Shown: positions 41,516 through 52,035 of the stretch, one piece after another
Layout: the number at the start of each line of letters is the position of its first letter
Numbering within the stretch: position 1 is the stretch's first letter
Assembly (NCBI RefSeq): GCF_015163655.1
Contig: NZ_JADEUF010000012.1
Coordinates: forward strand, 1 to 52,035
Source: Xenorhabdus griffiniae
GTDB taxonomy: Bacteria; Pseudomonadota; Gammaproteobacteria; Enterobacterales; Enterobacteriaceae
Length of the DNA: 52,035 nt
Reading direction: 5' to 3'
Program-made: the position numbers and the translations under genes
The notes under the pieces: generated by a model
Seen by the model: only the letters and a program-made list of their open reading frames with translations
The model's database searches: none
What the model was told of the DNA's origin: nothing

Positions 41516-42232
41516 ATGCAAACCCCGCACATTTTGATTGTTGAAGACGAAATTGTCACACGCAATACCCTTAAGAGTATTTTTGAGGCTGAAGGGTATG
41601 TTGTTTATGAAGCCAATGATGGTTCAGAAATGCACAACATTCTGTCAGATAACGATATCAATTTAGTCATTATGGATATCAATCTGCCAGGTAAAAATGG
41701 CTTACTGCTTGCCCGTGAATTACGTGAGCAGGCAAATGTTGCATTGATGTTCCTAACCGGCCGTGATAATGAAGTGGACAAAATTCTTGGTCTCGAAATC
41801 GGTGCTGATGATTATATAACTAAGCCATTTAACCCACGCGAATTAACCATCCGTGCACGTAATTTGCTTTCGCGGACAATGAACCTGAGTCATCCAGGAG
41901 AAGAGCGTCGCCAAGTTGAAAGTTATAAGTTCAATGGATGGGAGCTGGATATTAATAGCCGCTCTTTGGTTAGTCCGATGGGCGATCATTACAAATTGCC
42001 GCGTAGCGAATTCCGTGCGATGCTTCATTTCTGTGAGAATCCAGGAAAAATCCAAACCCGTGCCGAATTGTTGAAAAAAATGACAGGCCGCGAACTGAAA
42101 CCGCACGATCGTACTGTTGATGTGACTATTCGCCGCATTCGTAAGCACTTCGAATCGACACCAGATACTCCAGAAATCATTGCTACCATCCACGGTGAAG
42201 GTTACCGTTTCTGTGGTGATTTAGAAGACTAA
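41516..42232 (+). CDS. arcA: Response regulator ArcA (aerobic respiration control)
   Basis: A 238-aa OmpR/PhoB-type regulator, same length as E. coli ArcA. The receiver domain has the acidic pair E10/D11, phosphoacceptor Asp54 (VIMDINLPG), Thr in MFLTGRD and Lys in YITKPF; the C-terminal winged helix ends [20 protein letters not shown]. It receives phosphate from ArcB, which is not in this window, and represses aerobic metabolism without oxygen. Confidence 0.98.
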
Positions 42233-45039: not shown

Positions 45040-45093
45040 AGTTATTTTCCGTTATACTGCATCATGAAATAATTCAAAGGATAATTTATTTAT

Positions 45094-45621
45094 ATGTACC
45101 ACGTTATTGCAGCAACAACTAACCCTGCGAAGATAAAAGCGATTAGTCTTGCATTCGATGATGTTTTTGGCCCAGGCACCTACCACATAGAAGATGTTAA
45201 TGTAGACAGTAGTGTACCTCAGCAACCTATTGGTAATACTGAAACGCGTACAGGTGCCCGTCATCGGGTTATGGCTGCTCGCCAGGTTCGGCCAGAAGCT
45301 GATTTTTGGGTTGGCGTTGAAGCAGGAATTGAAGATGACATGACGTTTGCCTGGATGGTCGTTGAACATAAACAAATTCGGGGAGAATCGCGTTCTGCGA
45401 GTTTGATGTTGCCAGAAAAAGTCCTGGAAGGCATTCGTCAAGGACGCGAACTTGGCCATGAAATGGCGGATGTTACTGGCGTCGATAATATCAAGCAGAA
45501 AGGTGGTGCGATTGGCTTTTTTACCCATGGTATTCTGACGCGTACTAGCGTTTATCATCAAGCTCTGATACTGGCTCTTGTGCCTATCCATCATGAAATT
45601 TACAAAGAGTCGAATAACTAA
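45094..45621 (+). CDS. yjjX: Inosine/xanthosine triphosphatase YjjX
   Basis: A 175-aa house-cleaning NTPase that removes ITP/XTP. Signature stretches: [11 protein letters not shown] near the start (Ham1-like fold), the substrate loop [17 protein letters not shown], and the acidic [11 protein letters not shown] followed by FAWMVV. Lies between gpmB and trpR exactly as in E. coli. Confidence 0.95.
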
Positions 45622-48514: not shown

Positions 48515-48865
48515 TTATTCGAAAAAATGATTTGCGCCAATCAATGAAATCAATCGAGTCAAAACCTCGTCCATCACATCAGATTCAGCTTCAGTTACAA
48601 ACTGAGATTTTCTGTCTTTCCATGACAATGTTTGAACCAAGCTTGCAGCAACAACGCTTGTTTTTGCCAGATTATTTACTGGCACTTCAGTCATTCCGCC
48701 ACGGATACTTGTACTAATTGGACATATAATGACTAACCCAGTTTTTTTATTGTATTCCTCACTTGAAAGAACAAGTGCCGGTCGGTACTTACCGTTCTCT
48801 TTTCCTTTAACGGGTTCAAAATCAAGGAAAATTATGTCATTTCTTTTAGGTAAGTAAGGCGACAT
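48515..48865 (-). CDS. mazF: MazF/PemK-family mRNA interferase toxin
   Basis: A 116-aa toxin of the MazF/PemK/ChpB endoribonuclease family. Landmarks: NDIIFLDFEPVKGKE in the first strand, YRPALVLSSEEYNKKTG (the RPA-V-S-xxYN signature, about residues 27-43), and ICPISTSIRGG. Its ATG shares a base with the antitoxin stop (TAATG), the classical toxin-antitoxin arrangement. It would stop growth by cutting mRNA when the antitoxin is lost (family knowledge). It is an insertion between slt and ettA. Confidence 0.85.
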   Translation of the reverse strand: MSPYLPKRNDIIFLDFEPVKGKENGKYRPALVLSSEEYNKKTGLVIICPISTSIRGGMTEVPVNNLAKTSVVAASLVQTLSWKDRKSQFVTEAESDVMDEVLTRLISLIGANHFFE

Positions 48866-49110
48866 TATGAACCTAACTCCGTGCTGGTCGTGATTGCTAA
48901 TTCATCCGCATGAGAATTATGCTCATTAATATCCGCAAGCAGCGCACTCTCAGAGAAGATTTTCCTTTTTCTCTTTGGGGTTAAAATAATTTTTCCAGAA
49001 TCAACCTGCATATCCAGCGCTTCACCGGTTTTCAGACCAACCTGATTGAGGATATGGGTAGGCATAATAATTCCTTGACTATTCCTCCCTTTTTTAATGG
49101 CAGTAGACAT
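48865..49110 (-). CDS. mazE: MazE-like antitoxin (AbrB/SpoVT fold)
   Basis: An 81-aa antitoxin. The N-terminal swapped-hairpin DNA-binding fold reads KGRNSQGIIMPTHILNQVG followed by DSGKIILTPKRKRK; the Ser/Glu/His-rich C-terminus would wrap the toxin. The start is ATG 49110, seven bases after an optimal GGAGG; an in-frame ATG at 49122 overlaps that site and is rejected. Autoregulation of the operon is expected for the family; a TATAAA on - lies upstream of the gene. Confidence 0.85.
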   Translation of the reverse strand: MSTAIKKGRNSQGIIMPTHILNQVGLKTGEALDMQVDSGKIILTPKRKRKIFSESALLADINEHNSHADELAITTSTELGS

Positions 49111-49360
49111 ACAAACCTCCATAGTGAGTGTTTATACATAGCATATGACTTCTATCTGTGAGAATGACAAAGTGATTTGTTCAAAATTTGACACATCAAT
49201 TTCAGGCACTGGTATACATCGCCCAGCCAAAAATGACAAGGTGATAAAAAAGGCAGAACAGCGATTACAGTGAGAAAGATCCAACTTCCTCAGTTGGCAA
49301 GTTAAAAAGAAGTCGTACAATACCAGATCCATTAAGCAGATAATCAAAAGGTAAACTACA
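49111..49360. other. Spacer between mazE and ettA
   Basis: 250 bp holding the divergent promoters of the toxin-antitoxin operon and ettA. A 42-codon plus-strand ORF at 49145-49273 (starts MTSICENDK, ends KAEQRLQ) lacks a ribosome-binding site and resembles nothing I know; it may be a gene fragment brought with the insertion. Confidence 0.3.
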
Positions 49361-51028
49361 TTGGCCCAATATGTTTATAGTATGCATCGGGTAGGAAAAG
49401 TTGTTCCTCCTAAAAGGCATATTCTGAAAAATATTTCTCTGAGTTTTTTCCCTGGAGCAAAAATTGGTGTTCTCGGCCTCAATGGTGCTGGTAAATCTAC
49501 GTTACTGCGCATCATGGCGGGTATTGATAAAGATATTGAGGGAGAAGCACGTCCACAACCGGGTATTAAAATCGGCTATCTGCCGCAAGAACCTAAGCTT
49601 AATCTTGAACATACGGTTCGTGAAGCTGTGGAAGAAGCTGTTAGCGAAGTTAAAAATGCGTTGACTCGCCTGGATGAAGTTTATGCTGCTTATGCTGATC
49701 CAGATGCGGATTTCGATAAGCTGGCAAAAGAGCAAGGTGAACTGGAAGCGATTATCCAATCCCATGACGGCCACAATCTGGATAATCAGCTTGAGCGAGC
49801 GGCTGATGCTTTGCGTCTGCCTGCATGGGATGCGAAGATTGAACACTTGTCTGGTGGTGAACGCCGTCGTGTAGCAATTTGCCAGCTGTTGTTGGAAAAA
49901 CCAGACATGCTGCTGCTTGACGAACCCACTAACCACCTTGATGCTGAATCTGTCGCATGGCTGGAGCGCTTCCTGCACGATTATGAAGGCACAGTGGTTG
50001 CGATCACCCACGACCGTTACTTCCTGGATAACGTCGCTGGTTGGATCTTGGAGCTTGACCGTGGTGAAGGTATTCCGTGGGAAGGCAACTACTCTTCATG
50101 GCTGGAACAAAAAGATGCACGTCTGGCACAGGAAGCGGCGTCAGAAGCGGCTCGTCGTAAATCCATTGAGAAAGAACTTGAGTGGATCCGCCAAAATCCG
50201 AAAGGACGTCAGGCAAAAGGCAAGGCACGTTTAGCGCGCTTTGAAGAACTGAATAGTGTTGACTACCAGAAACGTAATGAAACCAGCGAATTGTTTATTC
50301 CGCCTGGCCCACGTTTGGGGGACAAGGTGTTGGAAGTCACTAATCTAACCAAGTCTTATGGTGATCGCGTACTGATCGACAACTTGAGTTTCTCTTTGCC
50401 AAAAGGGGCGATTGTTGGGATCATCGGCCCGAACGGTGCAGGTAAATCAACGCTGTTCCGTATGTTGTCCGGTCAGGAGCAGCCAGATTCTGGCTCAATT
50501 ACACTGGGTGAAACGGTTAAATTGGCTTCTGTTGAGCAGTTCCGCGATAGCATGGATGATAGCAAAACCGTTTGGGAAGAAGTTTCTGGCGGTCAAGACA
50601 TTATGCGCATTGGTAACTTTGAAATTCCGAGCCGTGCCTATGTGGGGCGCTTTAACTTCAAAGGCGTAGATCAAGGTAAGCGTGTTGGTGAATTGTCTGG
50701 TGGTGAGCGTGGCCGTCTGCATTTAGCTAAGTTGCTGCAAGTTGGCGGCAACATGTTACTGCTTGACGAACCAACTAACGATTTAGACGTCGAAACTTTG
50801 CGTGCATTGGAAAACGCCTTGTTGGAGTTCCCTGGCTGTGCGATGGTTATTTCCCATGACCGTTGGTTCCTTGACCGTATCGCGACACACATCATTGATT
50901 ATCAGGATGAAGGTAAAGTCACCTTCTTTGAAGGAAACTTCAGCGAATACGAAGATTACAAGAAGCGGACTATGGGGGCGGAAGCGCTGGAGCCTCACCG
51001 CATTAAATATAAAAAGATCAGTAAGTAA
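49361..51028 (+). CDS. ettA: Energy-dependent translational throttle protein EttA
   Basis: A 555-aa ABC-F protein that binds the ribosomal E site and gates entry into elongation according to ATP/ADP. Two ABC cassettes: first Walker A GLNGAGKST and LSGGERRR/LLLDEPTNHLD, second GPNGAGKST and LSGGERGR/LLLDEPTNDLD; the interdomain linker (PtIM, about 245-320) carries ELEWIRQNPKGRQAKGKARLARFEEL. The start codon is TTG at 49361 with AAAAGG upstream; the family protein begins MAQ. All motifs are intact, in contrast to the next gene. Confidence 0.97.
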   Translation: MAQYVYSMHRVGKVVPPKRHILKNISLSFFPGAKIGVLGLNGAGKSTLLRIMAGIDKDIEGEARPQPGIKIGYLPQEPKLNLEHTVREAVEEAVSEVKNALTRLDEVYAAYADPDADFDKLAKEQGELEAIIQSHDGHNLDNQLERAADALRLPAWDAKIEHLSGGERRRVAICQLLLEKPDMLLLDEPTNHLDAESVAWLERFLHDYEGTVVAITHDRYFLDNVAGWILELDRGEGIPWEGNYSSWLEQKDARLAQEAASEAARRKSIEKELEWIRQNPKGRQAKGKARLARFEELNSVDYQKRNETSELFIPPGPRLGDKVLEVTNLTKSYGDRVLIDNLSFSLPKGAIVGIIGPNGAGKSTLFRMLSGQEQPDSGSITLGETVKLASVEQFRDSMDDSKTVWEEVSGGQDIMRIGNFEIPSRAYVGRFNFKGVDQGKRVGELSGGERGRLHLAKLLQVGGNMLLLDEPTNDLDVETLRALENALLEFPGCAMVISHDRWFLDRIATHIIDYQDEGKVTFFEGNFSEYEDYKKRTMGAEALEPHRIKYKKISK

Positions 51029-51037
51029 GTCTGCCAG

Positions 51038-51067
51038 AAAAAACGGCCTGCTCGCAGGCCGTTTTTT
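51038..51067. terminator. Terminator of ettA
   Basis: AAAAAACGGCCTG (51038-51050) and CAGGCCGTTTTTT (51055-51067) form a perfect 13-bp stem with a CTCG loop; T-runs on both strands also allow it to end the minus-strand ABC gene. Confidence 0.92.
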
Positions 51068-51103
51068 GTTGCATGTAACTAACCCATTGTTACTACTGAG
51101 CGA

Positions 51104-51832
51104 TTACGACACTAAAACGCGTTGTTCCATTATGGATTCATAAGTCTTAGTTGCCTTTCCATATGCTAAAGTGATAACGCTATCCGCGTGTTTTATCAGG
51201 CGTCTGTCCTGAGAGGCAATGACAACCGTACCTTTCTGTTCATGGGCAATAAATTTAAAGATATTCATGAATGTCTGAAATGCCTGATCATCTAAATTGC
51301 GTGTTGGGTCATCTGCAAATAAATACTCAGGTCTTCTGACTATGGCTTTCGCCATTGCTGCCAATTGTTTCTCGTTTTCAGACAGTTCCCCTGGATAATA
51401 ACGGCTTTTATCGCCTAATTTCACAATATCCAGCGATTTTTGTGCGATTTTTTCGGCTTGCTCGCGAGCAAGTGACAATCCATAAGACGTTGATAATAAC
51501 AAGTTATCTAAGAGAGTGAGTTCACTAAATAAGTTGAAATCTTGGAAAATAAACCCGCTATTTTCATGATGAAACTTTCCTAACTCCACATCATTCATTA
51601 GTTTCAACTTGTTATTATTAATTAATACATCTCCTTGATCTGGTTGTAACATACCCGATGCAATCGACAATACCGTGCGGTTAGTCGATGCCTTCGGCCC
51701 TGTTATCAAAGTAATTTCACCTGGTATAATAGAAAATGTGATATTTGAAATCATTTCATGATTAACTGTTGCATCAGTTAAACCATATGAAATATTGATA
51801 ACCTCAATCGATTTAAATTGATTCAAGTTCAT
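51104..51832 (-). CDS. ABC-transporter ATPase-like protein with degenerate active site
   Basis: A 242-aa protein with the full fold of a LolD/MacB-type ABC ATPase (start ISYGLTDATVNHEMISNITF, Q-loop GFIFQDFNL with Q97, D-loop NLDD). Nearly all catalytic elements are changed: Walker A reads GPKASTNRT (residues 45-53) instead of G-x-x-G-x-G-K-S/T, so the essential Lys is Asn51 and two glycines are lost; the signature is LSENE (150-154) instead of LSGGE; Walker B is FADDP with Asp175 for the catalytic Glu; the switch His is Gln208 (ASQD). The frame is intact and full-length, so this is not simple decay. ATP hydrolysis is unlikely. No permease lies in the window; a divergent gene starts 152 bp away. 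Confidence 0.8.
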   Translation of the reverse strand: MNLNQFKSIEVINISYGLTDATVNHEMISNITFSIIPGEITLITGPKASTNRTVLSIASGMLQPDQGDVLINNNKLKLMNDVELGKFHHENSGFIFQDFNLFSELTLLDNLLLSTSYGLSLAREQAEKIAQKSLDIVKLGDKSRYYPGELSENEKQLAAMAKAIVRRPEYLFADDPTRNLDDQAFQTFMNIFKFIAHEQKGTVVIASQDRRLIKHADSVITLAYGKATKTYESIMEQRVLVS

Positions 51833-51983
51833 ATTCTCAACACAATTAGGTTAAAAGATTAAAGCTTTTTCCTTAAACATATGCTGTCTAAATTCATTCG
51901 CAATAACACTGATATCCTTATGGTATTATGTGAATAAAAATAGTCTATATGCGAAACATCTTCATCAAGGATATATTCATCTT
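51833..51983. promoter_or_regulatory. Divergent promoter region at the right edge
   Basis: 151 AT-rich bp between the degenerate ABC gene (-) and the partial gene (+). AAGGA at 51968-51972 is the ribosome-binding site of the partial gene. Promoters are not resolved. Confidence 0.4.
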
Positions 51984-52035
51984 ATGTCAATTATTATTTA
52001 CAATGACTATCTAATAAATGAGATGTTTCTTAGTC
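51984..52035 (+). CDS. Start of an unidentified gene, cut by window edge
   Basis: ATG at 51984 with AAGGA 11 bases upstream opens a frame that stays open to the window end (17 codons: MSIIIYNDYLINEMFLS). It is divergent from the degenerate ABC gene, so the two may share a regulatory region. Too short to identify. Confidence 0.45.
   Translation, partial: MSIIIYNDYLINEMFLS

Follow-up and report, generated by a model that had tools for sequence, protein, structure and literature searches.

Why should an ABC ATPase gene be kept when nearly every catalytic motif of its product has been replaced? The question arises at one end of the window, i.e. the whole stretch of 52,035 nucleotides of Xenorhabdus griffiniae DNA that was analyzed, where a 242-aa protein does not show the canonical ABC set of Walker A (GxxGxGKS/T), signature (LSGGQ/E), Walker B Asp-Glu pair and switch His. 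To our knowledge, it is unusual for an ABC domain standing alone to have lost Walker A, signature, switch and, in most cases, the catalytic Glu while retaining the fold. Xenorhabdus and Photorhabdus, bacteria living with insect-killing nematodes, are studied for symbiosis and natural products. In a literature search outside of which most subscription papers fall, we found nothing joining Xenorhabdus with nadR and an ABC transporter, nor with a degenerate, inactive or orphan ABC protein, a pseudo-ATPase or an orphan ATPase.

The frame is open from ATG to stop, as a reading made earlier from the letters of the DNA (the sequence-only reading) had it, and gives a match to the ABC ATPase model of Pfam (PF00005, ABC_tran) with an E-value of 2e-18 and 67.8 bits, above the gathering score of 25. 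Its best NCBIfam models were DevA (137.9 bits), LolD and FtsE, each far under its own cut-off; the DevA family (TIGR02982) requires 295.8 bits, and the protein is thus below the family threshold. An AlphaFold model (mean pLDDT 84.3) has the ABC fold, the closest PDB structures being YbbA, MJ0796, MacB and LolD (TM about 0.87), and among the 50 matches listed those of the LolD, FtsE, MacB NBD and YbbA type gave TM values of about 0.8-0.88, normalised to the query. The gene and the features discussed below are collected in Table 1.

Table 1. Positions of the pseudo-ATPase gene, its motifs and its 5' region in the window.
Feature	Position	Strand	Basis
Orphan ABC pseudo-ATPase gene, DevA-derived, 242 aa	51104..51832	-	ORF, ABC_tran match, orthologues, AlphaFold ABC fold
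Walker A remnant, codons 45-53, GPKASTNRT	51674..51700	-	alignment
Signature remnant, codons 149-155, ELSENEK	51368..51388	-	alignment
Walker B, codons 171-176, LFADDP	51305..51322	-	alignment
Switch residue Gln208	51209..51211	-	alignment
Element constrained at the nucleotide level, gene positions about -40 to +246	51587..51872	-	pairwise distances, codon use
Block 1, -40 to +54	51779..51872	-	distance 0.039 at -40..-1, 0.027 at +1..+54 in CDS
Block 2, +67 to +136	51697..51766	-	distance 0.016
Block 3, +169 to +246	51587..51664	-	distance 0.075
Candidate antisense promoter-like site, TTATCA-16-TATAAT, TG before -10	51703..51730	+	promoter scan; inside block 2
In-window part of the nadR-to-pseudo-ATPase gap	51833..52035	-	upstream distances in relatives

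The altered residues that the sequence-only reading had listed (GPKASTNRT, LSENE, Asp175 and Gln208) are all present. The window was aligned with 28 further genomes to give 29 Xenorhabdus sequences (G060 and the second copy in G023 were left out). Walker A position 51 has changed from Lys to Asn in all 29, and GKST is kept in 12 of 12 Photorhabdus sequences. The Xenorhabdus signature reads LSENE (27/29) or LSGNE (2/29), with Asn153-Glu154 in every sequence, and that of Photorhabdus LRDNE (9/12) or, once each, LHDNE, LGDSE and LRDSE, with no LSGG. At position 175, that of the catalytic Glu, Xenorhabdus has Asp in 23 and Glu in six of the 29, and all 12 Photorhabdus have Glu. Position 208, a His in the relatives with DevA operons, is Gln in 28 and Thr in one of the Xenorhabdus sequences and Gln in 12/12 Photorhabdus. 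The Q-loop and D-loop had also been read as retained, which is so in the window but not across the genus, Gln97 being replaced in 4/29 and Asp181 in 9/29 sequences. P-loop positions 47-49 and 52 vary among the relatives.

Orthologues were found in 30 of 30 Xenorhabdus genomes searched (80-100% identity) and in 12 of 12 Photorhabdus genomes searched (52-55% identity), none with an internal stop. A family-wide search of 392 genomes gave 11 with a match at E <= 1e-47, namely six Xenorhabdus, four Photorhabdus and one other genome (G393). Two contig copies occur in G023 (contamination 7), and in Xenorhabdus hominickii two contigs of one assembly (L096 and L097) each carry a copy with 90% identity to that of the window; these double copies may be a real duplication or an assembly effect.

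The window stops at the contig end, beyond which a partner gene had been proposed as worth looking for. In G060, a genome of the same species, the next gene upstream is nadR (NCBIfam), about 670 bp off, and the relatives likewise show nadR there. The order nadR, pseudo-ATPase gene, ettA, with ettA convergent, was seen in 13 of the 14 loci readable on both sides (L032, L033, L035-L037, L039-L041, L049 and, in Photorhabdus, L050-L053), and the gap behind nadR measures roughly 670-750 bp across the readable loci. The exception is L034, where ettA is not downstream; L038 ends at its own contig end. In the window the adjoining gene at 49361-51028 is EttA by NCBIfam, in agreement with the earlier naming; nadR and ettA were named by NCBIfam in G060 or the window and in L050, and by likeness in the other loci. 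Neither a permease nor a second transporter ATPase adjoins the pseudo-ATPase gene in the loci examined, G060 included, nor does a peptide gene adjoin it in the relatives, and an adjacent partner beyond position 52035 is thus not supported. Between slt and ettA, at 48515-49122 (minus strand), lies a MazE/PemK-type toxin-antitoxin pair (Pfam), which by sight is also found in L038; the same-species L049 has only a 71-aa ORF on the toxin side, and in the other loci no such ORF of at least 70 aa is listed between slt and ettA.

With regard to origin, a tree of 37 rows places Xenorhabdus and Photorhabdus in one clade (100/100), nested in a 17-row set (100/99) together with G039, G393, G577, G461 and one Planctomycetota sequence, all five of which have intact motifs. 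DevC-DevA-DevB operons are present in G039, G393, G577 and G461, that of G039 with FtsX/MacB_PCD and HlyD domains. The outer branch (100/99) shows common descent with the DevA of DevCAB operons, and the exact place among the DevA relatives is poorly fixed, as the inner forks are weak (85/43, 84/77 and 87/48). Two own-genome paralogues (L171 and L172), for which no alignment was obtained, were left out of the tree. A search with one DevC query protein (E <= 0.001) found no close DevC permease in 10 Xenorhabdus and Photorhabdus genomes and gave a match in both operon-bearing genomes included, and no DevC permease or DevB adaptor gene was seen adjacent to the pseudo-ATPase gene in the loci examined. 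A decayed devC in the gap behind nadR was also considered, with no match better than E 3.8.

Selection on the protein was judged from codons 81-242 only, the low protein divergence of codons 1-80 being partly due to constraint on the DNA. For these codons Xenorhabdus has a mean pN of 0.085 and pS of 0.532, with a median dN/dS of 0.090 over 337 of 406 pairs, and Photorhabdus a median dN/dS of 0.184 over 65 of 66 pairs. Given these low ratios, the protein is under purifying selection and the gene is not decaying. Sequencing error, already doubted in the sequence-only reading, is unlikely as well, since the motif changes are conserved, dN/dS is low and internal stops are absent from the 30 and 12 genomes; the relaxed dN/dS near 1 and broken frames in sister strains that would mark a decaying gene were not seen. 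Counts of positions invariant across both genera differ by motif, i.e. 1/9 in Walker A and 1/6 in the D-loop against 5/8 in Walker B, 4/9 in the switch and 3/7 in the signature, and therefore Walker A and the D-loop are relaxed, and the signature, Walker B and switch are maintained in their altered form. Positions 96-118, which we take to be the permease-contacting part in ABC ATPases, are invariant at 11 of 23.

The explanation that we favor, with about even confidence, is that the gene encodes a retained, free-standing, non-hydrolytic pseudo-ATPase, formerly the nucleotide-binding subunit of a DevCAB-type exporter and now without permease and adaptor in both genera (DevC having been searched in 10 genomes, and the absence of DevB being that seen next to the gene). 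Its observed basis is the kinship with DevA proteins of intact motifs, the presence in every genome searched, the fixed motif changes and the purifying selection. Selection for a non-hydrolytic role had been suggested beforehand and is partly supported by the genus-wide altered motifs and low dN/dS; the adjacent permease, peptide or second transporter ATPase that would go with some of the roles then named is missing. The signature and switch His would have been lost in the common ancestor, followed by the Walker A Lys in Xenorhabdus and the Glu in most Xenorhabdus. The protein would then no longer hydrolyse ATP, and in Xenorhabdus would probably not bind it normally. Nucleotide binding may still be possible, most so in Photorhabdus, because Walker B, switch and signature are partly invariant and Photorhabdus keeps GKST and the Glu. 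We infer that the protein binds a second protein and so serves as an ABC domain that is fixed and does not cycle, the most likely partner being a surviving permease or ATPase of the MacB, LolCDE or FtsX type, which may be encoded elsewhere in the genome.

The 5' part of the gene is constrained in another manner, namely at the level of nucleotides, a feature that the sequence-only reading had overlooked. Its three blocks have mean pairwise distances of 0.016-0.075, as compared to 0.178 and 0.199 in the patches between them and 0.181 over the remainder of the CDS (26 of the 29 Xenorhabdus rows, those with full upstream sequence), and the second patch (0.199) spans most Walker A codons. Among degenerate codons of invariant amino acids, a single codon serves all 29 sequences at 43 of 57 positions in codons 2-80, as against 6 of 75 in the remaining codons 81-242 (p 3.6e-16 by Fisher's test, a nominal value as the species are related). 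Silent-site divergence in Xenorhabdus is 0.120, 0.042, 0.272 and 0.195 over codons 1-80, taken 20 at a time, and then lies at 0.436-0.625; in Photorhabdus it is 0.014-0.094 per 20 codons in codons 1-60 and 0.148-0.356 later, with no dip in codons 61-80. Many positions match between the two genera. Upstream, the gap in relatives has distances of 0.091 at -210..-150 and 0.147 at -560..-440, with less conserved stretches reaching 0.330, and the conserved stretches out to -560 suggest a large regulatory region. In one locus (L004) the gap holds, at -197 to -121 from the ATG, the inverted copies GAAACATCT (-197) and AGATGTTTC (-129), which may be regulator sites or a stem, and alifold of -220..-20 gave three sense pairs with two-sided changes.

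Two controls were used to place this effect. In most of 10 neighbouring genes, though not in nadR, silent divergence is likewise lowered at the 5' end, for 20-60 codons, and the lowest 20-codon value among them was 0.17 versus 0.04 in the pseudo-ATPase gene (8-10 of 11 loci per gene, creA only four; some starts are ragged). Over 80 codons the pseudo-ATPase gene has, at 0.178, the lowest value of 15 real gene sets in the window, a small sample drawn from the 16 of 42 window ORFs that have orthologues in at least five of six other genomes, the other 26 falling outside. Next is arcA (41516-42232, plus strand; ArcA by NCBIfam), with 0.233 in the first 80 codons versus 0.438 in the whole gene. The sixteenth set, a 180-aa frame at 45052-45594 (minus strand) antisense to the inosine/xanthosine triphosphatase gene (45094-45621), was set aside as an antisense shadow; its pS of 0.092 lies below its pN of 0.126, as would be expected of such a shadow of a conserved gene. 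The 5' silent-site effect is strongest in the pseudo-ATPase gene and is found in milder form elsewhere.

It could be argued that this element is the main function of the locus, whether as a regulatory RNA of either strand or as a large region bound by a regulator, with the protein secondary or a relict. The codon use, the low silent divergence shared by the first 60 codons of Photorhabdus and the lowest 80-codon value in the window all speak for it, as does a sigma-70-like antisense site whose 37-nt surroundings are identical in 29/29 Xenorhabdus. The -10 of that site is AAAAAT in 12/12 Photorhabdus, however, which counts against this view; the scan found no terminator-like site to go with it, and in 1.5 kb it gave two promoter-like sites versus 8.7 in shuffles, so a promoter-like match is not unusual in itself. 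Covariation is nearly absent, with two-sided covarying pairs over -60..+260 numbering zero sense and one antisense in Xenorhabdus and one sense when both genera are aligned together, although invariant sequence gives this count little power, and Rfam returned only two matches on 49000-52035 (E 0.16 and 0.94), both below half the gathering score. The RNA fold z was -1.72 in sense and -2.42 in antisense. Considering also the protein-level purifying selection on codons 81-242, and the shorter 5' dips of the neighbours together with the arcA value, we find it doubtful that the element is the main function, though it deserves weight. Other sources of the constraint were tried and rejected. An overlapping gene would have to run through interruptions, as all five other frames are broken in the commonest stop patterns and the longest clear run, about 40 codons in antisense, lies between stops at +194 and +71. 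As to a repeat or gene conversion, a 138-nt stretch has a single strong copy per genome in the nine searched, other matches having E 0.007 or worse. Low GC3 (0.277 versus 0.348) fits Xenorhabdus but not Photorhabdus (0.308 versus 0.311), and composition alone is therefore no explanation. Returning to the free-standing pseudo-ATPase, a large cis region through codon 80 would govern how it is expressed, acting as DNA or as RNA.

A further possibility is a degenerate half-site partner, which would join an intact LolD, MacB or YbbA-type ATPase in an asymmetric heterodimer and slow or gate a type VII permease. In favor of this, the protein shares fold and subfamily with LolD, MacB and YbbA, and its own genome has 21 further profile matches, nine of which, those in the tree alignment, have intact Walker A and LSGG. 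There is also a precedent in heterodimeric exporters, whose degenerate sites work by way of a partner according to the part of the source available to us (PMC7756269). A maintained composite site would hardly let its sandwich residues vary as the P-loop positions, Gln97 and Asp181 do here, and we judge this arrangement improbable. That the gene is a slowly decaying remnant, as its stepwise motif loss and drifting P-loop positions might suggest, is very improbable with the frame open in all 42 genomes of two genera and a dN/dS of 0.09 outside the 5' element.

Taking the protein and its 5' region together, we tentatively propose, as a possibility rather than a probable outcome, a locus with two functions that is special to the nematode-symbiont genera. 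In it a dead ABC ATPase would serve as a protein-binding regulator, and its first 60-80 codons would at the same time act as a regulatory nucleic-acid element that predates the split of Xenorhabdus and Photorhabdus. Being fixed in two genera, the motif changes offer a readable series of steps in which an ABC motor may have turned into a protein that is no longer one, from active DevA through the Photorhabdus state, which retains GKST and Glu and has neither LSGG nor the switch His, to the two Xenorhabdus states. The frozen 5' region gives a lead, open to testing, towards a regulatory element so far unrecognised.

Among known systems, LolD, FtsE, the MacB NBD and YbbA (type VII ABC subfamily) share the fold of the pseudo-ATPase; their motifs are intact, and they work with cognate permeases of the FtsX/MacB type. 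Degenerate NBDs also occur in heterodimeric ABC exporters (e.g. TM287/288, TAP and CFTR NBD1); as a rule they retain Walker A, and a transmembrane domain and an intact partner are either fused to them or encoded alongside. They resemble the pseudo-ATPase in that, as far as the accessible parts of the literature go, the catalytic residues of one site are replaced, and differ in that the pseudo-ATPase is also without Walker A and its gene stands alone. The DevBCA-type tripartite exporters include DevABC of Anabaena, according to the accessible part of PMC5985334. From the DevA of such exporters (TIGR02982) the pseudo-ATPase is set apart by its score below the cut-off, its altered catalytic motifs and the lack of an adjacent permease or adaptor gene, yet DevA is its best NCBIfam model and its neighbors in the tree sit in DevC-DevA-DevB operons.
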